Positions 2,406 through 28,663 of a DNA stretch of 35,879 bases are shown here, one piece after another. Every line of letters begins with the position of its first letter. The first letter of the stretch is position 1. The notes under the pieces were generated by a model that saw only the letters and a list, made by a program, of their open reading frames with translations, had not been told where the DNA came from and searched no databases. The position numbers and the translations under genes were made by a program. The stretch spans positions 1 to 35,879 of the forward strand of contig JAHJLF010000047.1 in NCBI GenBank assembly GCA_018821925.1, read 5' to 3'. Source of the stretch: Candidatus Edwardsbacteria bacterium. Its GTDB lineage: Bacteria; Edwardsbacteria; AC1; EtOH8.

Positions 2406-3383
2406 CTAGATTTCAAGCGATAGATCCAGCCTCATGGGGTGGCCCAATCCGGGGAAAGGCGTGTAGGCGTAGTCTATGGAATATTTTTTGTATTTGATGC
2501 CGAAGCCGGCACCCAGGCCGGCAAAGTCGTCTAGGTCAGAACCGTTCTGGATATCCCCCAGATTGCCGTTGTATCCCAGCCGAAGTGACAGATGTTTTAT
2601 AAAATTCAATTCCGTGCCGAAATTCATTTTGAAGGAATTGTCGATAGCCTTGTTGCCGGCCAGCAAAATGACCAGCTGGTCGGAGAATGGACGGTATTCC
2701 ATTCCGGCCCGGACCGTCAAAGGCATCTTCTCCTTGGTGGCGACGAAAGCCTTGGCCACCATCCCGATGTTATTAACCGACAACCCAAGTTTCAGACTGG
2801 TCCCGTAGTTCCTTTTTCCCTTGGCCATAAAAATCTTTTGGGCCACCATGGCCGGGTCCAGCTGGTAGATACAGCCCAGGTCAACCGCCCCGCCAGCCGC
2901 CGAATACTCAAGGGTCTTATCGTAGATGCCCTTGAGGCTTGCTCCGGCGTAAAGGTCTTTAAGAAGTTCCCGTCCATAACTGGCCTGGAGGACAAAAGAC
3001 GAGTAGTTGAAATCCCCCAGTCCCGCTCCGGTGGGATCCAGCAGGGTGGTCTGTTTTATATCGCCGCTGTTCAGGTAGGACAATGACAGGCCGGCGGCGG
3101 ATTTTTCCTTTAAGGGATGGACATAGGTTATATTGCCGATCTGGATGCCGGCGATATAATTGACATACCCGGCCGAGATCTTTTTGATATTGCAGTAAGG
3201 CAGTGCCCCCGGATTGTAAAGAATACATGAGGCATCGCCCCCCATGGCCACGGTGGCCTCGCCCAGCGAGGCCGGCAGGGCCTTGACCGGCACCCGCAGG
3301 AAGGAAAACCCGCTGTCCTCGGCCCGGGCCGGAATGGCGACAGCGGCCAGGGCGATTATCAGTATGCTGAGCCTTTTGATCAT
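2406..3383 (-). CDS. PorV/PorQ-family (UPF0164) outer membrane beta-barrel protein
   Basis: A 325-residue protein with a signal peptide ending near ARA (residue 21). The mature start matches the PorV/PorQ family: GFSFLRVPVKALPASLGEA, then AMGGDASCILYNPGAL (glycine, then a YNPA-like motif), followed by alternating amphipathic strands to an aromatic-rich C-terminus. Family members resemble FadL barrels; in Bacteroidetes PorV works with type IX secretion, but many members lie outside such systems. No gliding or Por gene is seen nearby, so a secretion role is not supported here. The start codon overlaps the stop of the upstream 112-aa gene (ATGA), so both are made from one message ending at the hairpin at 2362-2390. 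Confidence 0.85.
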   Translation of the reverse strand: MIKRLSILIIALAAVAIPARAEDSGFSFLRVPVKALPASLGEATVAMGGDASCILYNPGALPYCNIKKISAGYVNYIAGIQIGNITYVHPLKEKSAAGLSLSYLNSGDIKQTTLLDPTGAGLGDFNYSSFVLQASYGRELLKDLYAGASLKGIYDKTLEYSAAGGAVDLGCIYQLDPAMVAQKIFMAKGKRNYGTSLKLGLSVNNIGMVAKAFVATKEKMPLTVRAGMEYRPFSDQLVILLAGNKAIDNSFKMNFGTELNFIKHLSLRLGYNGNLGDIQNGSDLDDFAGLGAGFGIKYKKYSIDYAYTPFPGLGHPMRLDLSLEI

Positions 3384-3718
3384 TCCTTGATGTCCCCCTG
3401 GTTATTGGGCGACAGAAAGAACACTTTCTGCCAGTGGTCGTCCGAATCGATGATCTGGCTGTTGTCGAAATTGAACGATGGGCGGGCCAACACCGAAGCG
3501 AACTCCTGACGGTGCATCCACAGCCAGTCCTGGACCTCCTCGTGCTCCAGGTTGTTCAAAAAATGAACGAACTCCTCCAGGGTGAACCCGCTCTGAGAAC
3601 GGCTCTCGAACCAGGCCTCGATCTCGGTGCTGTCCAGGCTGGACAGCAGTTCGAACAGATCGCCCCAGTCATTCTCCAAACCAATGGCGTTTTTATTATA
3701 GCTTTTGAAATAGGTCAT
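3380..3718 (-). CDS. Uncharacterised 112-aa acidic protein
   Basis: No family is recognised. The protein has no signal peptide or membrane segment and is rich in Glu, Asp and Trp. The middle reads like paired helices (ESRSQSGFTLEEFVHFLNNL, then EEVQDWLWMHRQEF). It shares a four-base ATGA overlap with the PorV-like gene downstream, and a good promoter with a short leader lies just upstream, so it is the first gene of a two-gene operon. The tight coupling suggests a role linked to the barrel protein, but nothing in the sequence shows which. Confidence 0.7.
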   Translation of the reverse strand: MTYFKSYNKNAIGLENDWGDLFELLSSLDSTEIEAWFESRSQSGFTLEEFVHFLNNLEHEEVQDWLWMHRQEFASVLARPSFNFDNSQIIDSDDHWQKVFFLSPNNQGDIKE

Positions 3719-3751
3719 TATATCCTCACTGGTGTGAACACTTCCGGTCTA

Positions 3752-3780
3752 ATGTTACCCGAAAAGGAGCCGATTGTCAA
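3752..3780 (-). promoter_or_regulatory. Promoter of the 112-aa/PorV-like operon
   Basis: Minus-strand TTGACA (3780-3775), a 17-base spacer, then TAACAT (3757-3752), which keeps the important first, second, fifth and sixth bases. The start of transcription would fall near 3745, about 27 bases before the ATG at 3718, and the leader carries GAGG as ribosome binding site. Confidence 0.55.
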
Positions 3781-3828
3781 CACAACCGGCGCCAGGCAAA
3801 ACAGGATCTGCAATTTAGACACTGGACT

Positions 3829-3990
3829 AAAGACTAAAAATCCGAAATCCGAAACAAATCCGAAATTCCAAATCCAAATGACCCAAGCAACGATCCACTT
3901 CGTGAGTGCCGCGGTTTTGAACATTTGTATTTTGTCATTTGATATTGTTTCGTGTTTCGGGTTTCGTGCTTCGAATTTAAGAAAGGTCTA
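3829..3990 (-). repeat. Imperfect palindrome of heptamer tracts (TCCGAAA type)
   Basis: The gap 3781-4018 has no gene. Its left arm repeats TCCGAAA/TCCGAAT-like units and then CCAAATCCAAATGAC. Its right arm holds GTCATTTGATATTGTTTCG followed by TTTCGGG/TTTCGTG units, so the arms are roughly inverted copies around a centre near 3905. The transcript could fold into a long AT-rich hairpin. The strand is arbitrary. Confidence 0.6.
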
Positions 3991-4018
3991 CTGTCTGAAT
4001 CACAGAAAACGGGATGCT

Positions 4019-4321
4019 CTATTTTCGGGATACGGTATTAAGCCCCTTCTTGCTGTTGTGGCGGGGATGTTTGGCCACAGCGTCTATGGCGTTGACCAGC
4101 GCGGCAATAACCTGCACCTTCAGCTGGGAGGTGGACATATTGACCATGGTATGAATATGCCCCCCTTCACTGGCCACATAATAAGAAGGAAGCTTATTTA
4201 GCGCGAAAGCCATAATATCAAGCTGACAGGTGCGGCAGTGACAAAGGTCGCCCCGGGCCAGCAATACATTTTTCAGTTCCTCTTTTACCAGCTTTTCGGT
4301 ATAGTTGGTGAGCTTTGCCAT
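4019..4321 (-). CDS. ComFB-family protein
   Basis: A 100-residue cytoplasmic protein matching the late-competence ComFB family: NYTEKLVKEEL at the N-terminus, the CHCRTCQLDIMAFALNKLPS core with a cysteine cluster, then YVASEGGH. The cysteines resemble a metal site. ComFB sits in the comF locus of Bacillus subtilis, and relatives in other bacteria have been linked to cyclic-nucleotide signalling; no competence gene is nearby, so the role here is open. It starts 18 bases after the Na/Pi symporter stop, with AAGGAG upstream, and is probably its co-transcribed partner. Confidence 0.82.
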   Translation of the reverse strand: MAKLTNYTEKLVKEELKNVLLARGDLCHCRTCQLDIMAFALNKLPSYYVASEGGHIHTMVNMSTSQLKVQVIAALVNAIDAVAKHPRHNSKKGLNTVSRK

Positions 4322-4339
4322 CTGTTTCTCCTTTTGTTT

Positions 4340-6361
4340 TTATTTGGCCCGGCCCAGCAGGGCGGCCCCTATCTGGCTGGCATGAAAATTTATCCGTTCA
4401 AAATCGCTCAGCAGGTCCAAATGCATGGTGCTGGTCTCCCGGGATTCCTTGAATCCCGCCTGCAGCCTTCCCAGGTGCTTTTTATACAGCTCCTTTTCCA
4501 GGGCCAGCACCTGATCCTTGCGGTTGTGAGCATTTCTGGCCAGTTCCAAATCGCCGGAGGCCAGGGCTCCTATGGCCATATCCAGGGTGGCCAGGGTTTC
4601 CCGGTAGAGCGATTTGATTTCATCCATCCCTTCCTCGGAAAAGGCCAGATGCTGTTCGATCTTCTTTGCGGCATGTCCCATGATGTTCTTGCTGATCACA
4701 TCACCGATATTCTCGATATCATTGACGATATACAGCAACTCCACCCCGCGGCTGGACTGGTCTCCGGAGAGGTCCTCCTGGGTTATCTTGACCACGAAGG
4801 GGGTTATGGCCTCCTCCAGCAGGTCCACCTTATCGTCATCGGCCACCAGTTGGTTTCTCAGATTGATATCGTTCTTTTCCAGAACATCACAGGAGCGGAC
4901 CAGCATATCCCTGACCAGGTCGGCCATTCTCAGTAACTCCTGGGATACTTGGCCGATAGCCAACGACGGCGTTTCTAAAGCCCGCTCATCAAGGTATTTT
5001 GGCCCGAATATTTTTTGCCGGGGGGAGACCACCGGAACCATCCTGTTGAGAAATTTCCCGAACGGCTTAAGCCAGGGCAGGAAGAGCAGCGAGGCCAGCA
5101 CGTTGAAAATGGTGTGGGCATTGGCTATCTGCCTGGCGGTATCTCCCCCGAACCTCTGAACCAATGTTATAAAAGGAACGATAAAGATCAGGGCCGCGAT
5201 TCCGGCCAGGACCTTGAAGATGGTGTGCCCCCAGGCCACCTTTATCGATTCCTGATTGCCGCCCCAGGCCGCCATCAGGGCCGCTCCGCAGGTGCCGATG
5301 TTGGCCCCGATGATTATGGGCATGGCGGCCGGCAGGGCTATAATATCCTGAAAGGCCAAAGTCAGCATTATCCCGATGGTGACGGCCGAGGACCTCACCA
5401 GCAGGGTGAACATCACTCCGATCAGCACCCCCAGCAGCGGGAGGGAACCCATCCCGGCGAACAGGCTCAGGAACCAGGGCATGGATTTCAAGGGAAGCAA
5501 CGAATCGGCGGTCAGCTTCATGCCGTAGAAAATAAGGCCGAAGCCGAATACTATCTGGGGATAATATCTCCAGGGCCGCTTTCCGGCTATCATCATGGCC
5601 AGGAATCCGCCCACCACCAAGGCCAGGCAGTAATCGGACAGTTTGAAGGCGATCAGTTGGACGGTGATGGTGGTCCCGATATCGGCCCCCAGGATCACCC
5701 CCAGCGCCTGTCTCAAAGATATCAGCCCGGCGTTGGTCAGGGACACCAGCATTACGGTGGTGGCGGTGGACGACTGGACGATGCCCGTCACCAGAATCCC
5801 CACCCCCAGGCCCTTCAAGCGGTTGTCGGTCAGGTTCCACAGCATCTGTTTCAGTTTGGTGCCGGCGGCCTTCTGCAGGCCCCGGGAGCAGAATCTGATG
5901 CCGAACAGAAAGAGCGCCAGGCCGCCGATGGCCCCCAGCAATGATATCAGCCACCAGTGATTCTGGTAGGAGTTGAAAGAAAAGGTGACCGCCTTTTTGG
6001 AATCGGTGGCCAGGTGCGCCTGAATATAGATCGTCTCCAGTTGCTTATGAGGAATGATCCGGCAGATGGCATTGCCCTTGACGTCGGAGACCGCCGTATC
6101 GGGTTCCACCTCGGCGGTGCCCTCTCCCACCGGCACGAAGGCCACCCTGGCCCCGGCCACCGGCCGGCCCCGGGCATCGGTGATCTGCACCACCAGGGGA
6201 TGGCCGGCCGGCTTCCCGATGGTCACCGCCTGGCGGTCGCCGGAGACATCGTTGCCCAGAGCATCCACCGCCTTGCTGATGCGGTGATCGGCCCCCCACA
6301 GCGGCATTGAAAAAAGCGATGCCGCCAGGCCTAACAGCAATATTTTTGGGATCCGGCTCAC
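4340..6361 (-). CDS. Na/Pi symporter family protein with N-terminal Ig-like domain and C-terminal PhoU-like domain
   Basis: A 673-residue inner-membrane protein. Residues 1-23 form a signal peptide. Residues about 27-130 look like a bacterial Ig-like (Big_1) domain, with PLVVQITDARGRPVAGARV followed by a DTAVSDVKGNA-type turn. The two inverted Na/Pi-cotransporter repeats follow: QSSTAT (196-201) and GADIGT (225-230), then RSSAV (323-327) and GANIGT (352-357). The second QSS motif is RSS here. The C-terminal 200 residues are helical and PhoU-like, as in the YjbB/NptA group. The family carries out sodium-driven phosphate transport. The extracytoplasmic Ig-like domain is unusual. The GTG start overlaps the stop of the SPOR gene, so they are coupled. 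Confidence 0.88.
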   Translation of the reverse strand: MSRIPKILLLGLAASLFSMPLWGADHRISKAVDALGNDVSGDRQAVTIGKPAGHPLVVQITDARGRPVAGARVAFVPVGEGTAEVEPDTAVSDVKGNAICRIIPHKQLETIYIQAHLATDSKKAVTFSFNSYQNHWWLISLLGAIGGLALFLFGIRFCSRGLQKAAGTKLKQMLWNLTDNRLKGLGVGILVTGIVQSSTATTVMLVSLTNAGLISLRQALGVILGADIGTTITVQLIAFKLSDYCLALVVGGFLAMMIAGKRPWRYYPQIVFGFGLIFYGMKLTADSLLPLKSMPWFLSLFAGMGSLPLLGVLIGVMFTLLVRSSAVTIGIMLTLAFQDIIALPAAMPIIIGANIGTCGAALMAAWGGNQESIKVAWGHTIFKVLAGIAALIFIVPFITLVQRFGGDTARQIANAHTIFNVLASLLFLPWLKPFGKFLNRMVPVVSPRQKIFGPKYLDERALETPSLAIGQVSQELLRMADLVRDMLVRSCDVLEKNDINLRNQLVADDDKVDLLEEAITPFVVKITQEDLSGDQSSRGVELLYIVNDIENIGDVISKNIMGHAAKKIEQHLAFSEEGMDEIKSLYRETLATLDMAIGALASGDLELARNAHNRKDQVLALEKELYKKHLGRLQAGFKESRETSTMHLDLLSDFERINFHASQIGAALLGRAK

Positions 6362-6801
6362 TCGGCCAGGTTGACCTCTATCACAAAGATCCCTTTATAT
6401 CCCAGGGCCTTGGCCCGGCTCTTGAGATTATCTGCATCCCGCCGGGTAAGGTTATTCCCCACCTGCACCTTATAATAGGGCTCGGCCTCGGAGACATAGA
6501 TCTGCTGGTCGCCAAACTTCCACCTGGCCTCCTCGGCCACCTTGCGGGCGTTCTCCAGGGTGGCCGAAGCGAATATCTGGACCCTCCACCCCCAGACGCT
6601 CTGGACCGCCCCCTTGCTGCCAACATACTGGCTCCCCGTGGTCTCCGGGGCCGGAGCGGCCGGGGTGACTTCGGTGAACGGCTGCTTGACCGGCTCCTGG
6701 ACAACCGGTTCCTTGACCGGCTCCTGCACCGCTGGTTTTTTGGCGGAGCATCCCGCCAGCGCCGCCAGGATCAGGATAATTGATAAATGTTTGATCTTCA
6801 T
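6358..6801 (-). CDS. SPOR-domain lipoprotein
   Basis: A 147-residue lipoprotein with a lipobox (ALAGC, lipidated Cys18). A Pro/Val/Glu-rich linker with three EPV/KQP-like repeats (residues 24-55) leads to a SPOR domain at about 72-145 (WRVQIFASATLENARKVAEE, then YYKVQVGNNLTRRDADNLKS). SPOR domains bind denuded glycan strands at division septa. The gene lies 28 bases after manC and its stop overlaps the Na/Pi symporter start by four bases, so it is in the middle of a run of closely packed genes. Whether it anchors the envelope or aids division cannot be told. Confidence 0.88.
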   Translation of the reverse strand: MKIKHLSIILILAALAGCSAKKPAVQEPVKEPVVQEPVKQPFTEVTPAAPAPETTGSQYVGSKGAVQSVWGWRVQIFASATLENARKVAEEARWKFGDQQIYVSEAEPYYKVQVGNNLTRRDADNLKSRAKALGYKGIFVIEVNLAE

Positions 6802-6829
6802 TAAGGTCTCCTTCGCCCATGAAAATTGT

Positions 6830-7900
6830 TTATAGATATTCTTTCAGGTCTTGGTTGGCCCTTACCTGTTCCAGTAATTTTTTCACTTCCTGCGCCTTTG
6901 ACCGGGGGCAGACCATCACGGCATTGCCAGATTTGACGATGATCAGGTCGCTGACCCCCACCGCCGCCACCAGGCCCTCATCGCACAGGGCGATATTGTC
7001 CTGGCAATCCAGCATTTCCACCTGGCCCAGCTTGATATTGCCCCGCTGGTCCTTAGGATGGAACCTCTCCAGGGCCTCCCACGATCCCAGGTCGTCCCAG
7101 CCGAACTCACCCTTGATCACCGCCACCTTGTCGGCCTTTTCCATAATCCCGTAGTCGATGGATATCTTCTCCACCGCCTGGTAGAATTCGGCGAACTTCT
7201 CCCTGCCGGCCGCCAGGCCGCCCTGGGCCTGCCACTCCATCAATGGTTCGTACAGTTTGGGCATGTGCTGCTTGAAGCTCTGCAGGATGGCGGCTGCCTT
7301 CCAGATGAAGATCCCGCCGTTCCAGTAAAAATACCCGCTGCGGTAGAATCTCCGGGCGGTCTCCATATCCGGTTTCTCCCGGAAGCTTTTTACCATGAAG
7401 CAGGGAATGCGGCAATCCGGCAGGACCTCCCCCCGTTCGATATATCCGTAGCCGGTCTCGGGCCGGTCGGGCTTGAGTCCGATGGTTACCAGGTAGTCCT
7501 TTTCAGCCAGCTCCATGCCCTGCAACAGCACCTGGCGGAACATCTCTATGTCCCCTATGTGGTGGTCCGATGGCAGTACCATCATCACCCCGGAGGGGTC
7601 CTCTTTGAATATCTCGGCCGCCGCCACAGCGATGGCCGGGGCGGTATTGCGCCCCATCGGTTCGCCGATCAGCCTGACGTCCTTTATCCCGCTCTGTTTG
7701 ATGGGCTCGATCAGATCGGCGCTGGTCACCACCCACTGCCGCTCCCGGCTGGTCAAAGATTCCACCCGATCCAGGGTCTCCTGCAGCATGCTGTTCTGGC
7801 CGGCCAGAGCCAGCAGTTGTTTGGGTTTGTTCTCCCGGCTTTTTGGCCAGAAACGCTCGCCCTTTCCCCCGGCCAGGACCACGGCATAGATGTTGCTCAT
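6830..7900 (-). CDS. manC: Mannose-1-phosphate guanylyltransferase
   Basis: A 356-residue nucleotidyltransferase making GDP-mannose from mannose-1-phosphate and GTP. It shows the N-terminal signature VVLAGGKGERFWPKSRENKP with KQLL after it, the metal-binding region MVLPSDHHIGD, and RPETGYGYIERGE in the sugar-binding half. The length matches the single-function enzyme without the C-terminal phosphomannose isomerase domain of ManC/AlgA fusions. The start ATG overlaps the stop of the upstream 319-aa gene, suggesting joint expression. GDP-mannose would feed the glycosyltransferases encoded in the same stretch. Confidence 0.92.
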   Translation of the reverse strand: MSNIYAVVLAGGKGERFWPKSRENKPKQLLALAGQNSMLQETLDRVESLTSRERQWVVTSADLIEPIKQSGIKDVRLIGEPMGRNTAPAIAVAAAEIFKEDPSGVMMVLPSDHHIGDIEMFRQVLLQGMELAEKDYLVTIGLKPDRPETGYGYIERGEVLPDCRIPCFMVKSFREKPDMETARRFYRSGYFYWNGGIFIWKAAAILQSFKQHMPKLYEPLMEWQAQGGLAAGREKFAEFYQAVEKISIDYGIMEKADKVAVIKGEFGWDDLGSWEALERFHPKDQRGNIKLGQVEMLDCQDNIALCDEGLVAAVGVSDLIIVKSGNAVMVCPRSKAQEVKKLLEQVRANQDLKEYL

Positions 7901-8856
7901 TTTCCCTTTCTGCTGATATGTTTGCTCTTTATCATGGCCGCCAGCAAGGGCAGCATTATCTCATGGTGGCCGGTGATGGAATATCCCTTGCCGCCACAGG
8001 AAATCGGACGGCGGACCACGTTGAGGTTGGGGCGGTAATGCTGGATCATATCGAAGTTGGCGGTGGTGAAGTTTTTCACCGGGTGGCCTAGGTTGCGGGC
8101 CACGGTCAGGGCCTTTAAAAAGACCTCCGGCAGTATCACCGAGGACCCCAGGTTGATGACCACCCCGCCCGACAATCTGGCTGTCTCTGCAGCCAGTATC
8201 CTGAAATCCCGGTGGCTGGCGCTGCCTATTGAGGCCCCGTCGGCCGAGGGATGCTGGTGGATGATGTCGGTGCCTACTGCCACATGGACCGTGAAAGGGA
8301 TTTTCAGGCGATAGCACTCGGCCAGCAGGCTGTGGTTGATATAAGGAAATTTCTCCTCGTTCAGCATCAGCCCCAGGGATTCGCCGAAGCCCAGCTCCTG
8401 GGCGTCGCCCTGGATGACCGCCCCGTTGATCAGGTCGGCCGTCTCCCGGGCCATGCCGAAGGACCCGTCCTCCAGCCCGGCCGAAACATCCTCCGAGGTT
8501 CGCCCCCAGCAGGCCATCTCGAAATCGTGGATGGCCCCGGCCCCGTTGGTGGCCAGGCCGGTGATGAAGCCCATTTTCATCAGGTCGATGATCACCGGGT
8601 TCAGGCCGCATTTTATGGGGTGGGCCCCCATCATCAGGATCACCGGGCGCTTTTTGCGGCGGGCACCGATCACCGCCGCCGCCACCTCCCGCAGGTCGCG
8701 GGCCTTGAGGATATCGGGCAGGCCATTGATGAAATCCTCCAGCGGCTTTCCCGGATCGGGTATCGAAGCCAAATTGTCTCGTCCCACCCGGCTCTTTCGT
8801 TTGGCTATTGAGTGACGCTTGACCTTCGTCAGATCGGCCTCGGGATATCTTCCCAT
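7897..8856 (-). CDS. Conserved protein resembling the deoxyhypusine-synthase fold, function unknown
   Basis: A 319-residue soluble protein without signal peptide. Glycine-rich stretches typical of a Rossmann-like NAD fold are visible: MMGAHPIKCGLNPVIIDLM, LATNGAGAIHDFE and GGVVINLGSSVILPE. The TNGAGAIHDFE segment recalls the deoxyhypusine synthase family, but the active-site lysine region of true synthases is not evident, and bacteria lack the hypusine target. Histidines and acidic residues (HVAVGTDIIHQHPSADG) may form an active site. It overlaps manC by four bases, which hints at sugar or nucleotide metabolism. The family resemblance is tentative; the gene itself is certain. Confidence 0.65.
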   Translation of the reverse strand: MGRYPEADLTKVKRHSIAKRKSRVGRDNLASIPDPGKPLEDFINGLPDILKARDLREVAAAVIGARRKKRPVILMMGAHPIKCGLNPVIIDLMKMGFITGLATNGAGAIHDFEMACWGRTSEDVSAGLEDGSFGMARETADLINGAVIQGDAQELGFGESLGLMLNEEKFPYINHSLLAECYRLKIPFTVHVAVGTDIIHQHPSADGASIGSASHRDFRILAAETARLSGGVVINLGSSVILPEVFLKALTVARNLGHPVKNFTTANFDMIQHYRPNLNVVRRPISCGGKGYSITGHHEIMLPLLAAMIKSKHISRKGK

Positions 8857-19110: not shown

Positions 19111-20316
19111 TTATCCTATGAAACTCTTGTGCAAAGCCAGAACCGCCTTTTCGATGTCCTTGCGCGACACGAAACAGGTGAGCTTGGTCTCGCTGGTGGT
19201 CATGCCCTCTATATGGATCTTGATCTTGCCCAGCTGGGCCAGCATTTTGGCCATGACGGCCGGCTCGCTGCCCACCCCGCTGCCGATCAGCGACACCGCG
19301 CCGATGTCCTGATTGACGTACAGCCTCGCCCCCTTCATCTTCTTCAGGTCCTTCTCCATGATCCCTTGGGCCGCCTTGAGGTCCGTCTGGTTGACGATGA
19401 AGTTGAGGTCGGTCCTGCCGTCGTCGCCCCCGCCGTGGAAATACGACCTGATGTATATCCCGGCCCCGGCCAGCTGGGTCACCACCTGGCTCAACAGGAC
19501 GCTCCTCCGAGGCACCGCCTTCATGGCCAGCATGGCCAGGAATTTATCGTGGGCAATGGTTTTGACGACCACCCTCTCCATCTTCGAACCTTTCCCTACT
19601 ATCGTTCCCGGTTTGTTGTCGAAACTGCTGCGGCAGGTCACCGGCATCCTGTACTTGGCGGCCAGCTCCACCGCCCTTAAATGCAGCACCTGAGCCCCGC
19701 AGCTGGACAGCTCCAGCATCTCGTCAAAGGAAATAGCCTTGATGGGCCGGGCGGTTTTGACCAGCCGGGGATCGGCACTGAAGATCCCCGAAAAATCGCT
19801 GTAGATCTCGCAGGCGTCGGCCTCCAGAGCCACCGCCAGGGCCACCGCGGTGGTGTCCGAGCCGCCCCGCCCCAACGTGGTGATCTCACGCGCCAGGCTG
19901 ACCCCCTGGAACCCGGCCACGATCACTATGCTATCATTTTTAAGGGAATCTTTCAAGCGTTCCGGTTTTATTTCCAGGATCTTGGCCCGGGTGTGGCTGG
20001 AATCGGTGATGATGCCCACCTGCGACCCGGTGAAGGACACCACCTTTTCGCCCAGGCCGTGGATGGCCATGGCTAAAAGGGCCATTGATATCCGCTCGCC
20101 GGTGGTCAGCAGCATGTCCATCTCGCGCCTGGGCGGATCAGATGATATCTGACGGGCCAGGGCGCTCAGGTCGTCGGTGGTGTCGGCCATGGCCGAGACG
20201 ACGACCACCACTTTGTTGCCCCGGCGCTTGGCCCGGACTATGCGGGCGGCCACCGCCTTGATGCGCTGGACGTTGGAGACCGAACTGCCTCCGTATTTTT
20301 GGACTATTATCGGCAT
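19111..20316 (-). CDS. lysC: Aspartate kinase
   Basis: A 401-residue monofunctional enzyme phosphorylating aspartate, the first step to lysine/DAP, threonine and methionine. It shows KYGGSSV (7-13), [31 protein letters not shown] and SADPRLV in the kinase domain. Two ACT regions follow (from about residue 265 and from about 345), which in the family bind lysine or threonine for feedback control. No Shine-Dalgarno sequence precedes the ATG; instead a nine-codon ORF overlaps the start. The leader and first codons recur three times upstream. With asd and dapL it builds the DAP route. Confidence 0.95.
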
Positions 20317-20336
20317 ATTTTTGACAGGTTTAACAT
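20307..20336 (-). other. Nine-codon upstream ORF overlapping the lysC start
   Basis: ATG at 20336 reads MLNLSKICR then TAA, ending inside the lysC start region (10-base overlap, different frame). The same frame without indels is present in all three upstream copies, with changes at a few codons. It has no clear ribosome binding site of its own. It may be an accident of the repeat or a coupling device. Confidence 0.4.
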
Positions 20337-20373
20337 GGTTTGTTTTATAATTTAAATATTATATCGTGTATAA

Positions 20374-21183
20374 TCAATTTTGTTTTATCATATCTGATAT
20401 CTTAACTTCCGGATGATGATATCTGCCAATGATCGTATCAAATCCGCTCAAACTAATTGCTTCTTCTGGGCACCAGTGCAGACAGGCAAAACAACCGGCA
20501 CAATGGTCTGACCACCGGGGTTTATTATCAACTATTTCAATGTTATCTACAGGGCAAATCTTTTTACATATTCCGCAACCATTACATTTCCCATTTGAAT
20601 TTAAAACCATGGATTCCCAGCCTTTGGTTATCACTTGCTTTAAAAATTTCAAGAGCGTGGGCAACATTTTGACAAATGATCCCGTGAGAATAAATCCACC
20701 AAATAAATTGCTTGTTTCCAATTTTCCCTTTTTTCTGGAAATAATATATTCACTGACCTCTTCTAATTTAACTTTCCAGTTTTTGAACATTCTTTCATGC
20801 TGGATTTGAGAAAACGAATTGGACCCGATGCCATTATGAGGCATGCCTACCGCAAATCCTGCAGCCAACTCTCCTCCGCAGGATTTTATCACCGTTTCAA
20901 AAATCTTCATAGACTTGGATGGCGTAATTCCATAGGTGCAGACAGCAAATATGTACTTGGAGTCGATATTTTTTATTTTCCCGACAAAATTTTCAACAAT
21001 CAAAGGCGGCTTGAAGTCATAAATTGGAAATACGAACCCTATAACCTCGGCTTGAGTATCAATGCTTTCTTTAACCAATACGGAAGTAATCGGCGTCAAT
21101 TTCCCATTGGTTTTTGCCGCAATATCCCTTGCAACAGCCAATGAATTCCCTGTTCCCGAAAAATAATATATTTCAGTGGTCAT
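20374..21183 (-). CDS. EFR1-family flavodoxin/ferredoxin protein
   Basis: A 269-residue soluble protein. The N-terminal flavodoxin-like domain has the FMN phosphate loop YYFSGTGNSLAVARDIA. The C-terminal domain carries two [4Fe-4S] clusters: CNGCGICKKICP and CAGCFACLHWCP. The architecture is that of EFR1 proteins, seen widely in anaerobes and archaea; the electron partners are unknown. It is AT-richer than lysC and the V-ATPase genes and forms part of the island. No Shine-Dalgarno is seen; the lysC-head copy ends 18 bases before its ATG, so translation may follow that small ORF. Confidence 0.88.
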   Translation of the reverse strand: MTTEIYYFSGTGNSLAVARDIAAKTNGKLTPITSVLVKESIDTQAEVIGFVFPIYDFKPPLIVENFVGKIKNIDSKYIFAVCTYGITPSKSMKIFETVIKSCGGELAAGFAVGMPHNGIGSNSFSQIQHERMFKNWKVKLEEVSEYIISRKKGKLETSNLFGGFILTGSFVKMLPTLLKFLKQVITKGWESMVLNSNGKCNGCGICKKICPVDNIEIVDNKPRWSDHCAGCFACLHWCPEEAISLSGFDTIIGRYHHPEVKISDMIKQN

Positions 21184-21201: not shown

Positions 21202-21291
21202 TTAGGTTCTGGTGTCCCGCTGGACGTTGGAGACCGAGCTGCCTCCGTATTTTGGGACTATTATCGGCATATTTTTGACAGGTTTAACATG
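21202..21291 (-). repeat. lysC leader and head, copy 1 (upstream of EFR1)
   Basis: Positions 21218-21291 match the lysC leader and first 18 codons (20263-20336) at all but two positions. The ATG at 21270 stays open for 22 codons: the 18 lysC-like ones (one change, Q6P) and then DTRT before TAA at 21202. The nine-codon upstream ORF is kept too. Past the leader ATG at 21291 the similarity ends. Confidence 0.93.
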
Positions 21292-21331: not shown

Positions 21332-22462
21332 TTAGTTACTGCCAATGATCAAGCTTTTTTCCGGTATTGTTTTATTATTTATTGGATAATCGAATACGAC
21401 CGCCCGGTTCTTTTCGGCAGCCGTCAGCAAGCGGGCGTCTTCAAAGTCAGCGCCGTTGGTGAACAACAGTTGCCCGGCAACGCTTATTATTAAATAATCT
21501 TCCCTGTTTTTTAACTCAACCTTCTCTGCACCGCCGTTCCAGTCCCGATAGTATTCCAAAGTTTCGTTCGGCGGCATTATCGTCAGGGAATTATCCTTAA
21601 ACTTTTTCAATAACTCGGCCTGGTTGATCATGGTGTCAGGGGCATAAGCCCTTTCATCAACAACCTCCCGATAAGGTTTGGTATAAATACCCCATTGATT
21701 CGGATATATCGTTTTCCGGAAGTCCGTGAGATCAACCCCGATCAGTTTGGCGCTTATATTCTTGATTAAAAACCTCATTAGAAAGTTATCGTTCGTCGGG
21801 GAATGATATATGGCTTTTTCAACAAATATCTCAACCAGGCGTCCCTGGTATATCAAATGCTCCGATGTTGTATCAATTTGCTCTTCAAAAAAGGCCTTCT
21901 CGGATCTGGTCAATTCCTTTTGCCATTTCTTGCTATTCAGCAAAGTATTTAAGGCCGGTTTTAATTCTTCGCTTTTTATTATGCGGTAATTATTATTTGT
22001 CCACTGGCCATTGGCAATACAATATTCCAAATATTTCAGAGAGGACTCGGCCTTTCCTCCCAGCGAATAGCCTCGGGTTATCAAGAACGGTATGCCGTTA
22101 CTGATTTCAATCGGTTCTGACGGCCAATCCTTATAGCCGGTGTTGCCAATAAAACCGGCGGCGCCGATGAGCGGCCTTCTTAAAACGGCGTTTTTCTTTC
22201 CCTGGAATAACAGTCTGGTTAAAATTATTATCTGGTCCTCATATTTATTGGTTCCGGCATATTCTTTGAGGATCTCTATCGCTTTGGTCCTGTCCAGAGA
22301 CTGAATATAGCCTGCCAGTAAAATGTACGGGCTGCATTTGTAATTTTCGGAATTAATGGAAGAACATTGTTCGATCAGGAATTGGAACCGATCGTTCTCC
22401 GTTTGCCCGAATGTTGTGCCGGTTAGGATTGTCGCAAATAATATCGTTAATAATTTTTTCAT
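21332..22462 (-). CDS. Secreted protein of unknown function (376 aa)
   Basis: No family is recognised. A signal peptide (MKKLLTILFATILTGTTFG) is followed by a mature protein that looks helical in the N-terminal half (short repeats resembling TPR or HEAT helices, for instance SLDRTKAIEILKEYAG and SSLKYLEYCIANGQW) and beta-rich in the C-terminal third (LTIMPPNETLEYYRDW, EDYLIISVAGQLLF). AAGGAGG lies before the ATG. The end of the lysC-head copy 2 is 28 bases upstream. Composition is AT-richer than lysC, as for its island neighbours. Confidence 0.7.
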   Translation of the reverse strand: MKKLLTILFATILTGTTFGQTENDRFQFLIEQCSSINSENYKCSPYILLAGYIQSLDRTKAIEILKEYAGTNKYEDQIIILTRLLFQGKKNAVLRRPLIGAAGFIGNTGYKDWPSEPIEISNGIPFLITRGYSLGGKAESSLKYLEYCIANGQWTNNNYRIIKSEELKPALNTLLNSKKWQKELTRSEKAFFEEQIDTTSEHLIYQGRLVEIFVEKAIYHSPTNDNFLMRFLIKNISAKLIGVDLTDFRKTIYPNQWGIYTKPYREVVDERAYAPDTMINQAELLKKFKDNSLTIMPPNETLEYYRDWNGGAEKVELKNREDYLIISVAGQLLFTNGADFEDARLLTAAEKNRAVVFDYPINNKTIPEKSLIIGSN

Positions 22463-22490
22463 GGTTGTTGCCTCCTTAAAATTGCTGGTA

Positions 22491-22549
22491 ACTGCCTCCG
22501 TATTTTAGACCATTATCGGCATGTCTTTGACAGGATTAACATGGTTTGA
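22491..22549 (-). repeat. lysC leader and head, copy 2 (upstream of the 376-aa gene)
   Basis: It matches the lysC leader and the first 11 codons with several changes. After ATG at 22522 the frame reads MPIMV and then a stop, so this copy is broken. The leader shares CAGGATTAACATG with copy 3. Confidence 0.88.
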
Positions 22550-22598: not shown

Positions 22599-23165
22599 TC
22601 AGATCGTGCTGAATTGAATTTGGGCCGTGGCCATTCTTGAATAAAAATCCAGCTCTTTCCTTCGTCTTCCCGAATAATCGATCAAACGATCAAGCCCCGT
22701 CCAAAGGCAGAACCATCCGCCGGGCTCAAATAACACCAGGAGCAGCTGAAGGTAGTATCTTTCCGAATTTAAAAATGTGATATAACTTGCAAAGATCATC
22801 AAGGCAATGCCCGATATGGTCAAAATGATGGCATTTCGAATACCATTTTGCTTTTCTTTTAAAAGCTGGCCGCGTTTTTCCGTGAAATACCGCTGCAGGC
22901 GGGTGGCGATTATATCTTCATCCTGTTTATTTCTTGTTTCCGCCGGCAACTGTAACCGCAGGATCATTTCTTTCCCTTGCTGGTCGGCAACCACTTTCCT
23001 GACCTGGGCAATGAAATCGTCCGATACGGTGCGTTTCAAATACGATCTTGGATCGAAATCAGAAAACAACTCTTCCAAAGAGTCCAGCCAAATGTTGACT
23101 ACGTCCCGTTTCAAGAAGGGTTTTTCCTGATCATTGTTTTCCGAGGATTTATTCAGCTGATCCAT
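22599..23165 (-). CDS. Uncharacterised 188-aa protein with two membrane segments
   Basis: The N-terminal half is hydrophilic and charged (KPFLKRDVVNIWLDSLEELF, then DFDPRSYLKRTVSDDFI). Residues about 109-130 and 137-160 form a helical hairpin in the membrane, joined by a short turn (NSERYY). The tail (SGRRRKELDFYSRM) is basic. The pattern looks like a conserved hypothetical family of bacteria and archaea, but no function is known. AAGG precedes the ATG. The chimeric lysC-head/ntpK-tail copy ends 57 bases upstream. Confidence 0.7.
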   Translation of the reverse strand: MDQLNKSSENNDQEKPFLKRDVVNIWLDSLEELFSDFDPRSYLKRTVSDDFIAQVRKVVADQQGKEMILRLQLPAETRNKQDEDIIATRLQRYFTEKRGQLLKEKQNGIRNAIILTISGIALMIFASYITFLNSERYYLQLLLVLFEPGGWFCLWTGLDRLIDYSGRRRKELDFYSRMATAQIQFSTI

Positions 23166-23222: not shown

Positions 23223-23342
23223 CTATTTCAAAATAAACATCATCACCAGAGCGGCCGCCGCCTTGATGCGCTGGACGTTGGAGACCGAACTGCCTCCGTA
23301 TTTTTGGACTATTATCGGCATATGTTTGACAGGATTAACATG
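23223..23342 (-). pseudogene. Chimeric lysC head / ntpK tail (copy 3)
   Basis: On the minus strand the leader and ATG (23321) are followed by about 21 codons identical to lysC, up to AAGGCGG. The frame then runs without a break into CTCTGGTGATGATG..., the last nine codons of ntpK (ALVMMFILK against ALVMTFILK), and stops at TAG (23223). The complete frame is 32 codons. The junction shares CGC in both parents. The small changes show that the ntpK part is decaying. Confidence 0.9.
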
Positions 23343-23460
23343 AATGATTTCCTTTGGATGAGATGTCAAAGGTTGCTATCCGTGATCGGGGGATATTTTG
23401 GTAACGGTATGGTATGTTCATCTTGGAATGCTTATCGGTATAAAATAAACAGAACATTAA

Positions 23461-23871
23461 CTAAGACTTTATATTTTTCAGTTTTTTTATCTTGCGTTTC
23501 AACACTGCCCCACCGCAAAGTTCATGCTCCCATATTCTAATCACTTTCCAACCTTTTACCCGTAGCACACGTCCAATATTAAGATCGCGCTGTATATTGC
23601 GCTGAATTTTATTGTTCCAGTATATGCGATTTGTTGCTGGCACACGGCAGTGTTTCGCACAACCGTGCCAAAAACAGCCATCAATAAAGACTGCAATTTT
23701 ATTTTTTGGGAATGTAAAATCCGGGTTACCAATTATTTTGTAACGCCTACGCCAACCGTGTATATGATTCTCGCGAAAAATTAATACTGTTTTTAATTCT
23801 GTTGATATATTTCCACTAGACTTGACATTCGCCATGATTTGGGAACGTCTATTAATTGAAACATTATCCAT
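23461..23871 (-). CDS. vsr: Very short patch repair endonuclease (Vsr)
   Basis: A 136-residue DNA mismatch endonuclease. It has E25, D51 in GNPDFTFP, FIDGCFWHGC with H69, H74 and the RIWEHEL end. These match the metal and catalytic positions of the family. Vsr nicks 5' to a T:G mismatch produced by deamination of 5-methylcytosine, guarding against the mutations its partner C5-methyltransferase provokes. It lies six bases after the 245-aa nuclease gene and ends the cassette. The AT-rich bases mark it as acquired. Confidence 0.94.
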   Translation of the reverse strand: MDNVSINRRSQIMANVKSSGNISTELKTVLIFRENHIHGWRRRYKIIGNPDFTFPKNKIAVFIDGCFWHGCAKHCRVPATNRIYWNNKIQRNIQRDLNIGRVLRVKGWKVIRIWEHELCGGAVLKRKIKKLKNIKS

Positions 23872-23877
23872 TTAGAA

Positions 23878-24615
23878 TCAAGAAATTATTTCAACCCATG
23901 TTTCGTCAAATTTTAGGGCATCTAATACTTCACCTTGGTTTAGGCGAGGTGGTTTTTTTATGCGAATAGCCAAGCGATGGGCAGGCACATTTTCAATAAT
24001 TGTGAATTGCGAACCATGTGGTTGCCATGTAAAGATGTGTGCATCACCATCTTTAGTATAGCCTTCTAAATTATCATTATCATTCCATTGCCACCAATAT
24101 CGCTTTGCATCGTACATAATAGTATCAAGTTCAAAAGCAGCTAATTCAAGAAGATCATCAGACTTAACCAATACAACTGTACGTAGATGTTGGAACTTTT
24201 TACGGACACCTGCAACGCGCTCATTGTATATAGACAGGACTTTATCGCCCATATCATTTGGATCTACATTCTTGACTTTGTCTTGACCAAAAGAAAAAGC
24301 AACTGAATTGCGACCAGATATTAAACGCACCTTAGCCACAGTGGATGGTCGTTTGTTTTTAACAGTTTTTGCACCCCAAGCTGTTTGTTGAAGCACGATG
24401 TCGTCAAGCCCGACATTAGATGGCTGCCACTTCGCACCAACTAATCTTGCAAATATTTCTTCCCAATCTGTTCCCTCAAGGCGTGGTGTTCCTCTTGTTG
24501 CCAAATGATAGATAATTTCCTTTCCTAAGTTTAAAGCAAACCCTTTGGGAAACTTGTTAATTGGATAAGGTGGTTTATATTTTTCGACTGTTCTTAGCCT
24601 TGGTCTTTTTACCAT
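23878..24615 (-). CDS. Probable type II restriction endonuclease of an unrecognised family
   Basis: A 245-residue soluble protein whose family is not recognised. Its position between a C5-methyltransferase and vsr, with a 41-base overlap with the methyltransferase, points to the restriction partner. A candidate PD-(D/E)XK-like site is E52/E53, then D71-D72 in NVGLDDIVLQQ, with K83/K86 in WGAKTVK; this is an inference from spacing. The recognition site cannot be told. The middle has VLVKSDDLLELAAFELDTI; no transmembrane or signal segment is seen. Confidence 0.7.
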   Translation of the reverse strand: MVKRPRLRTVEKYKPPYPINKFPKGFALNLGKEIIYHLATRGTPRLEGTDWEEIFARLVGAKWQPSNVGLDDIVLQQTAWGAKTVKNKRPSTVAKVRLISGRNSVAFSFGQDKVKNVDPNDMGDKVLSIYNERVAGVRKKFQHLRTVVLVKSDDLLELAAFELDTIMYDAKRYWWQWNDNDNLEGYTKDGDAHIFTWQPHGSQFTIIENVPAHRLAIRIKKPPRLNQGEVLDALKFDETWVEIIS

Positions 24616-25633
24616 AGCGTTTTCCTTTCTCTTTCAACAGCAGTTGTTTATCAAATGATTGTTTCCTTGAATACACAAAATCCGGTTTGCTATTTTTCAT
24701 CCAACCACATGATTTAAATACGTTTAACAAAACAGCTTCGGCAACAGGAATAGGCAAACTATTGCCAGCTTGTTTGCGAGTTTGACTGTAATTACATATA
24801 ATTTTAAACGAATCAGGGAATCCTTGAAGTCGTAACATCTCGCGTGCAGTAAGCCGCCTTTCGCCATTGACTAATAAATAATTATATGAGGCCCCAGCTC
24901 TAAGTGCGCATGAATATGGATATACGCTTATGTGCCCGGCCTTATTCTCATGCCATATTGTAGGTTCCTTTGTTGGAGAATGCGTGGCAAAGCGTTTTGT
25001 TTTAATGTAGTCAGACGCATAATATTCCTTTGGCACACTTTTTTCCAATAACAGCCCAAGTGGTTTCATTGTTTTCCCGCCCTTCGGCCATTCAAAATCG
25101 CATGGTTTTTTGAAGCCTATTATAAATATACGCTCTCGTTTTTGTGGTAGTCCAAAATCCAATGCATTAAATATTTTTTTATCAACACTATATTCAAGTC
25201 CACGCAACACTTCCAAAATTCTAGAAAGTGTTTTCCCACCATTATGCCCAGCTAATAGTTTAACGTTTTCTAAAACGAAAGCCTGCGGTCTCTTCGCTTG
25301 AATTATTCTAGCTATTTCAAAAAAAAGTGTGCCTCTAGCATCTTCAAATCCTTTACGTTGTCCAATGATGCTGAATGGCTGACATGGGAAGCCAGCAAGC
25401 AAGATATCGTGTTCCGGAATAGTGCTAACATCAATAGCGTGTATATCACCTTTAGGAATTTCATTAAAATTAGCTTCGTAAGCTTTTTGGCATTCTATAT
25501 CAATATCGCTGGATAAAACACACTCTGATTTAATGCCCATTTTTTTCGCAACATCTTCAATAGCATAGCGAAAGCCACCTATTCCACAGAATAGATCTAT
25601 GAATCGTATAGTCGTTTCCAAATTGTGCCTCAT
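24575..25633 (-). CDS. DNA (cytosine-5-)-methyltransferase
   Basis: A 352-residue C5-methyltransferase. Motif I is FIDLFCGIGG (11-20), motif IV GFPCQPFS with catalytic Cys84, motif VI ENV (122-124), motif VIII QKRERIF (164-170), motif IX RRLTAREMLRLQGFP (259-273) and motif X QAGNSLPIPVAEAV. The target recognition region between motifs VIII and IX is about 85 residues, so one site is likely read. A basic tail overlaps the nuclease gene by 41 bases in another frame. It begins 21 bases past the ntpK stop, with AAGGG as ribosome binding site. AT-rich. Confidence 0.95.
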   Translation of the reverse strand: MRHNLETTIRFIDLFCGIGGFRYAIEDVAKKMGIKSECVLSSDIDIECQKAYEANFNEIPKGDIHAIDVSTIPEHDILLAGFPCQPFSIIGQRKGFEDARGTLFFEIARIIQAKRPQAFVLENVKLLAGHNGGKTLSRILEVLRGLEYSVDKKIFNALDFGLPQKRERIFIIGFKKPCDFEWPKGGKTMKPLGLLLEKSVPKEYYASDYIKTKRFATHSPTKEPTIWHENKAGHISVYPYSCALRAGASYNYLLVNGERRLTAREMLRLQGFPDSFKIICNYSQTRKQAGNSLPIPVAEAVLLNVFKSCGWMKNSKPDFVYSRKQSFDKQLLLKEKGKRYGKKTKAKNSRKI

Positions 25634-25654: not shown

Positions 25655-26158
25655 TTACTTCAAAATAAACGTCATCACCAGAGCGAACACCGCATATGTC
25701 TCCGGCATGGCCCCGGCCACCAGCGCATTTCCCAGGGTATTCTTCCCCTCCTGTATGCTCTTTATCCCCGCGGCGCAGACGATCCCCTGGTACCAGGCGC
25801 TGACCATCAATATCACGCTGGCGATGGCGGCCTTGCCGGCCACGGTGTAGGGATCGGTGGCGAAGCCGTTAAGATTGGTGAAGAATATCACCATCCCGTA
25901 GATCCCCTGGGTGGAGGGCATCAGGGCCACCGCGATGTTCTTGTAAAAATTCTCCTCGCCCCCGGCCAGCAGGGCCTGGAAAGCTATCACCAGTCCGATG
26001 GCCGAGCCGCTTAATCCCAGCGACAGGCTGAGGCCCAGGGCGATTTTGGCCACCAAGACCGGCCAGTCGTTTGCCGCCGGGGCGCTCTGGCACCAGGCCG
26101 GTGCGGCGGCGATCAGCGACAGCAGGAAAATTGCCGGGATGGTAAATCTCTTTTTCAT
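25655..26158 (-). CDS. ntpK: V-type ATP synthase/ATPase subunit K (proteolipid)
   Basis: A 167-residue rotor-ring protein: a signal-like N-terminus (1-24, unusual against the roughly 156-residue Enterococcus NtpK) and then two helical hairpins. The ion site is recognisable: M80-P-S-T83-Q84, Q124 in AWYQG, and the key Glu153 in MPETYAV. These line up with T64, Q65, Q110 and E139 of the sodium-translocating Enterococcus hirae NtpK. It lies two bases after subunit I and ends the operon. Its final codons recur at 23223-23252 fused to lysC. Confidence 0.93.
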   Translation of the reverse strand: MKKRFTIPAIFLLSLIAAAPAWCQSAPAANDWPVLVAKIALGLSLSLGLSGSAIGLVIAFQALLAGGEENFYKNIAVALMPSTQGIYGMVIFFTNLNGFATDPYTVAGKAAIASVILMVSAWYQGIVCAAGIKSIQEGKNTLGNALVAGAMPETYAVFALVMTFILK

Positions 26159-28129: not shown

Positions 28130-28191
28130 CTGCACTGAGGATGGCAGTTATTGTTGCCAACTGAAGTGGAAGCCGTCAGGCAGGGAGAGGT

Positions 28192-28288
28192 CAAAGAGAA
28201 AGCGGAGAAAACAATTCAATACTTTGGTGAATATTTAGATTAATATGTCATGTCCGTGGAAACGGGAATCCAGGCCGGCCTACCGTTG
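28192..28288. repeat. Direct repeat of about 97 bp, copy 1
   Basis: It begins AAAGAGAAAGCGGAGAAAAC and ends GGCCGGCCTACCGTTG. It is highly similar to copy 2 at 28566-28663. A GTCATTCC-type unit is degraded inside copy 1 and clearer in copy 2. Confidence 0.82.
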
Positions 28289-28565: not shown

Positions 28566-28663
28566 TCAAAGAGAAAGCGGAGAAAACAATTCAATACATT
28601 GGTGAACATTTAGCGTAATACGTCATTCCCGCTAAGGCGGGAATCCAGGCCTGCCTACCGTTG
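28566..28663. repeat. Direct repeat of about 97 bp, copy 2
   Basis: Second copy of 28192-28288, with a readable GTCATTCCCGC...GCGGGAATCC hairpin (28622-28645) inside. Confidence 0.82.

Follow-up and report, generated by a model that had tools for sequence, protein, structure and literature searches.

Gene-end scars and a Type II-like restriction-modification set between ntpK and lysC in Candidatus Edwardsbacteria

A restriction-modification set beside ntpK

We examined a window of 35,879 nt (contig JAHJLF010000047.1, positions 1 to 35,879) from a genome of Candidatus Edwardsbacteria. Three genes occupy 23461-25633 on the minus strand, beside ntpK (V-type ATPase subunit K by family search; 25655-26158, minus strand), which is the left border of an array of foreign genes. 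Gene 1 (24575-25633, minus strand, 352 aa) begins after a 21-nt gap from ntpK and overlaps gene 2 (23878-24615, minus strand, 245 aa) by 41 nt, and 6 nt separate gene 2 from gene 3 (23461-23871, minus strand, 136 aa); in this layout the ORF coordinates agree with the initial annotation.

Gene 1 is predicted to encode an HhaI-like C5 cytosine DNA methyltransferase. It matches PF00145 (E 1.8e-83, 281 bits), TIGR00675 and HhaI itself (8.9e-65), and a motif scan with patterns typical of this family found motifs I, IV, VI, VIII, IX and X, the six sought; it thus carries the catalytic motifs of the C5 methyltransferase of a Type II restriction-modification (R-M) system. Gene 3 has the family match and conserved core of a Vsr-like mismatch/nicking endonuclease, scoring 50 bits against PF03852 (cut-off 27), marginally above cut-off against TIGR00632 (98.1 bits, cut-off 97.85), and E 2.3e-13 against the solved Vsr structure 1odg. 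For gene 2, searches of Pfam, NCBIfam, PADLOC and PHROGs gave no family match, nor did any PDB sequence match significantly. Residues D71, D72, W80 and K83 are invariant in an alignment of three sequences and are weakly compatible with a nuclease site; a single-sequence structure model (pLDDT 34.8) was too poor for use. Since gene 2 travels with the methyltransferase in three other records, it is most simply the presumed restriction endonuclease of the set. The description of the trio as a complete restriction-modification-repair set therefore holds by family for genes 1 and 3, and for the unit as found elsewhere (below), while the name of nuclease for gene 2 comes from its position. The trio resembles Type II R-M systems in which Vsr accompanies a C5 methyltransferase, both in the families to which genes 1 and 3 belong and in the linkage of these two genes; it differs from them in that gene 2 falls outside all families in the searched libraries.

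In a distant genome, G250, the complete trio recurs with its gene order and the overlap of methyltransferase and gene 2 preserved, at 57, 60 and 55% identity. The methyltransferase and gene 2 occur together on the phage-like scaffold MT836739 and, with gene 2 present in part, in G213. Altogether gene 2 is matched in 5 of 386 genomes, its own and four distant ones, none of these in its own family; none of the nine other genomes of the family has a close copy of gene 1 (best identity 34%). Pattern scans yielded no relatives of gene 1 on genome contigs and none of gene 2 on viral contigs, and gene 2 had no plasmid match. The recurrence as one unit in distant G250 argues that the trio is a genuine R-M-Vsr set inherited as one module, and we take it as a Type II-like set of putative C5 methyltransferase, presumed endonuclease and putative Vsr that was horizontally acquired.

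Base composition sets the trio apart from the V-ATPase genes, as had been proposed. Its GC content is 37.5-39.2% (GC3 28-34%) vs 58-60% (GC3 78-83%) for ntpI, ntpK and lysC and 53-62% for the 13 window genes that served as host reference. Codon log-likelihood scores relative to these host genes are negative for the trio (-0.43 to -0.58) and positive for the 13 host genes (+0.11 to +0.37), so in both profiles the trio is foreign to its host. The AT-richness noted for the cassette is real, but extends through orf188, orf376 and the EFR1 ferredoxin gene to lysC, covering all of about 20.35-25.65 kb.

The array in the window

Between the trio and lysC the window holds a series of genes and gene fragments, all on the minus strand. 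Next to gene 3, alignment reveals a degenerate lysC 5′ scar (23422-23442), with counterparts in G001 and G003, lying before what remains of an acyltransferase gene, its first 25 codons (23347-23421). This gene is matched in three of the ten family genomes, whole in G001 and G003 and as remnant only in the window genome. A copy of the lysC leader and 5′ end follows (23251-23342; 92 nt, 97% identical to 20246-20337), fused to a copy of the ntpK 3′ end (23224-23261; 38 nt, 87% identical to 25656-25693) at a place where the two genes resemble each other; this fusion and the acyltransferase remnant make up the right flank of the trio. Beyond it are orf188 (22599-23165), of unassigned function and common to G001 and G002, a second copy of the lysC leader and 5′ end (22489-22543) whose counterpart in G001 stands after its orf188, orf376 (21332-22462), also unassigned, with a relative in G002, and a third such lysC copy (21218-21291). 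The last cargo gene encodes an EFR1-family ferredoxin (flavodoxin + 4Fe-4S; 20374-21183; NF038196 206.5 bits, cut-off 75). The right border is lysC (aspartate kinase by family search; 19111-20316), whose own leader and 5′ end (20246-20337) are, by repeat comparison, the counterpart of the copies. What had been called the lysC copies is accordingly one intact lysC together with fragments of its 5′ end.

These fragments bear on the suggestion that an R-M insertion had duplicated its target. Direct repeats of target-gene ends, as left by a long target duplication, flank the EFR1 unit (20264-20337 and 21218-21291). The trio is likewise flanked by ntpK ends (25656-25693 and 23224-23261), here with extra remnants in between, so that around the trio itself there is not one clean duplication.

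No Pfam hit to an integrase, transposase or phage gene was found among the scanned cargo proteins, the window holds no tRNA gene, and its 17-30 kb portion gave no RNA family; promoter and terminator scans gave results near chance.

The ntpK-lysC site across the genus

Four genomes of this Edwardsbacteria genus were compared (G000-G003). Foreign genes separate ntpK from lysC in all four, in G003 over two contigs, and the cargo nearest to ntpK is different in each: the trio, an HNH protein, a 263-aa protein with a deaminase/ATPase, and a 294-aa protein with an N6/N4 methyltransferase. Cargo in the genus also includes an acyltransferase, a NUDIX protein, a phosphoesterase, a TPR protein and an orotidine-phosphate-decarboxylase-like protein. 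All 22 ORFs counted as cargo (6, 6, 5 and 5 in G000-G003) have the orientation of ntpK and lysC; the count excludes a doubtful 154-aa ORF of G001 and small ORFs that overlap others on the reverse strand. Between them lie short partial copies of the border genes: nine aligned and one degenerate copy of the lysC 5′ end, and four of the ntpK 3′ end. Outside the genus the locus was compared in four of six family genomes (G004, G005, G006 and G008), and none of the four showed such copies.

Some scars occupy the same place in several species. A lysC end after orf188 is common to the window and G001, an ntpK end before orf188 to the window and G002, and a lysC end before the acyltransferase to G001, G003 and, as remnant, the window. 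Orf188 with its adjoining scars and the acyltransferase unit are thus older units, common to several species. The trio is present in one of the four genus genomes only, and it sits between ntpK and the multi-species scars. For these two reasons it is most simply a late arrival, and the idea that it founded the island was rejected.

Ends of both border genes also stand elsewhere in G002. At 67.3-70.6 kb of its contig C2 an AAA_13 protein (PDC-S06) and a DUF2971 protein (PDC-S31) are encoded between an ntpK end on the left and a lysC end on the right; the counterpart place in G001 has other genes and no ntpK or lysC ends. This candidate defence pair seems once to have lain in the ntpK-lysC gap and to have taken parts of the two border genes along when it moved. 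Genes for an EcoRI-type methyltransferase and a GmrSD/HNH protein precede the ectopic unit, forming a defence cluster with it (L055, G002:C2:62000-72000, at 2876-8584).

In G003 two contig ends, that of C35 (end of L054) and that of C12 (start of L127), share a common end stretch of ~99 nt and then diverge; the sampled population may have contained two versions of the array.

Origin of the scars

Leader alleles of lysC tie one scar to its own genome. Among the 12 leaders listed, TTAAACC and CAAAAAT occur only in the copy at 21218-21291 and in the resident lysC, and the EFR1 unit sits between this lysC end of 74-77 nt and the resident gene. The coincidence of two private alleles argues that the EFR1 insertion duplicated the resident lysC end locally.

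Other scars are closer to relatives. Over 110 positions the second lysC copy of G001 shows 13 differences to the lysC of its own genome and 6 to that of G002; over all three G001 copies the differences are 2, 13 and 7 to its own gene vs 0, 6 and 6 to that of G002. Both ntpK copies of G002 show the same tendency, with 11 and 12 differences to their own ntpK and 4 to 7 to those of other species. The window lysC copies are nearest to their own lysC in two of three cases, with a tie in the third, the lysC copy of G002 stands out neither way, and those of G003 do not discriminate. The allele evidence on exchange between relatives is mixed, and what looks like exchange could instead mean that the resident gene end was replaced afterward. 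In a homologous-tract test of the ntpK and lysC ends only the ntpK ends of the window and G001 stand out (0/72 differences, 1% of windows), a result too weak for use.

Most lysC copies have their left end at the leader, a sharp boundary that we read as the native leader. The leader (window 20320-20337) is a dispersed 18-mer, CATGTTAATCCTGTCAAA, found in 8 of 13 genomes searched (0 for the reverse-read control), among them several of Edwardsbacteria, with e.g. 16 instances in G003 at up to one mismatch. It is also present at lysC of G008, of another genus, and this presence together with the dispersal favors the native-leader reading; recombination at a short repeat is an alternative.

How the array may have arisen

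We consider it probable that repeated insertion with long, variable target duplication, together with exchange between relatives, built up an integrase-free cassette array at this site, the trio being one arrival. The long-lived insertion site would be the gap from the ntpK stop to the lysC leader, presumably short in the ancestor, into which foreign genes would enter again and again in this genus. Each entry would leave a partial direct copy of the target end that it crossed, lysC 5′ and/or ntpK 3′, such that both housekeeping neighbors stay intact and gene-end scars come to punctuate the cargo. Two routes may have contributed: the resident end may be duplicated at insertion, as for the EFR1 unit, or DNA from a relative's version of the site may be joined through homology at one gene end, its far side being joined illegitimately. 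A fuller claim is that the gap takes up single foreign genes or defence operons, all oriented alike, that these pass from species to species, and that they leave for other sites with pieces of the border genes attached, by general recombination only; this we would advance tentatively, at less than even chances. The competence-related genes ComEC and DprA are present in all four genus genomes; of 14 control genomes, 10 have ComEC and 11 have DprA, so their presence says little on real competence. No empty ntpK-lysC site exists among the four genus genomes, all being occupied, and target duplication is for this reason not provable by before/after comparison.

Either route might be thought sufficient alone, and we regard both such simpler readings as unlikely, to a similar degree. 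If only local insertion with long target duplication had operated, as in Helicobacter R-M insertions, every scar would be a copy of the resident end and no exchange would be needed; the variable-length direct repeats that flank cargo suit this, the EFR1 unit fits it exactly, and the kind of event is in print (PMC3031569, PMC1643837). It sits poorly with the lysC copies of G001 and the ntpK copies of G002, which are closer to genes of other species than to their own, and a single simple duplication would not suffice for the fusion of lysC 5′ and ntpK 3′ ends or for the ectopic unit with its two ends. Homology-facilitated illegitimate recombination alone would import single-cargo versions of the site from relatives, with homologous pairing at one border (ntpK or lysC) and an illegitimate join at the opposite end, which would leave ragged ends. 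The natural outer boundaries at the ntpK stop and the lysC leader, combined with inner ends that vary, the allele mismatches, the position of the fusion in the stretch where lysC and ntpK look alike, and a printed parallel in Vibrio immunity-gene arrays (PMC5361080) all agree with it, but the EFR1 scar with its private resident lysC alleles is better suited by local duplication.

Two further readings we hold to be very improbable. In integron cassette arrays that lack an integrase, the genes are mostly foreign, point one way and are separated by repeats; the present site shares this layout, which could suggest a degenerate integron or another site-specific cassette array. G003 does encode an integron integrase that at 462 bits exceeds the NCBIfam cut-off (G003:C70:26420-27361), on another contig; the other three genus genomes have none above cut-off, and a crude scan of five array stretches for attC core motifs found no attC-like pairs. 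The repeats here are not attC-like by that scan; they are ends of the neighboring genes, with variable inner ends. The integron reading is disfavored on both the attC-like scan and the integrase distribution. Assembly or binning error would be hardly more credible as the source of the scars: two of the genus genomes are metagenome assemblies and G003 is broken inside the array and has the two contigs with the ~99-nt stretch in common, but like scars, partly identical in place, appear in four assemblies, two of which have ~10 contigs.

Relation to known systems

R-M genes of Helicobacter pylori insert with long, variable target duplication (Nobusato et al., 2000, as described in PMC1643837, PMC3031569 and PMC4978471). 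Foreign genes, typically R-M, there lie between long variable direct repeats of the target, which is alike here. Unlike that case, the ntpK-lysC site has many insertions stacked at one place across a genus, with cargo going well beyond R-M, and its repeats come, in truncated form, from the ends of two named genes, some with alleles closer to other species. The Type VI immunity-gene arrays of Vibrio cholerae are proposed to be built by successive events of homologous recombination on one side and illegitimate recombination on the other, leaving remnants of displaced genes (PMC5361080). These arrays, and orphan Rhs tips, resemble the present one as stepwise products of one-sided recombination with remnants; the Vibrio anchor belongs to the varying module and the cargo consists of effector-immunity pairs, whereas the anchors here are two unrelated housekeeping genes. 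The literature listings searched contain no report of the ntpK-lysC site, nor of a multi-species mixed-cargo array punctuated by the ends of both border genes. The kind of insertion is thus already known from Helicobacter, and its serial stacking with mixed cargo looks new.

How defence genes enter and leave chromosomes that show no visible mobile element is an open question. If the integrase-free array is real, gene-end scars would be a readable record of gene arrival, and a species-tagged scar for each arrival would make the order and origin of arrivals legible. R-M genes would then figure as cargo of one sort beside others, and not as the founder. Short truncated copies of both border genes offer a signature with which to search other genomes.

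Repeats outside the site

A scan for direct repeats covered 400 kb from G002, 180 kb from G006 and 220 kb from G021; it took pairs of 35-250 nt with an identity of at least 80% and a distance of 200-10,000 nt. A genome-wide habit of leaving gene-end scars was rejected, as no such pairs were found outside ntpK-lysC in these 800 kb besides an array of Rhs tips; the remaining pairs were either dispersed intergenic repeats or lay within genes or between paralogues. From this part of the genomes the ntpK-lysC site looks special. The Rhs array (L076, G002:C6 at ~341.7-350.1 kb) has a 1443-aa Rhs-type gene followed by displaced tips, each of which opens with a copy of the conserved core end. Upstream of ntpI the window contains a 98-nt direct repeat (28191-28288 and 28566-28663, 87% identical), which includes an element, GGAATCCAGGC, seen elsewhere in the window.
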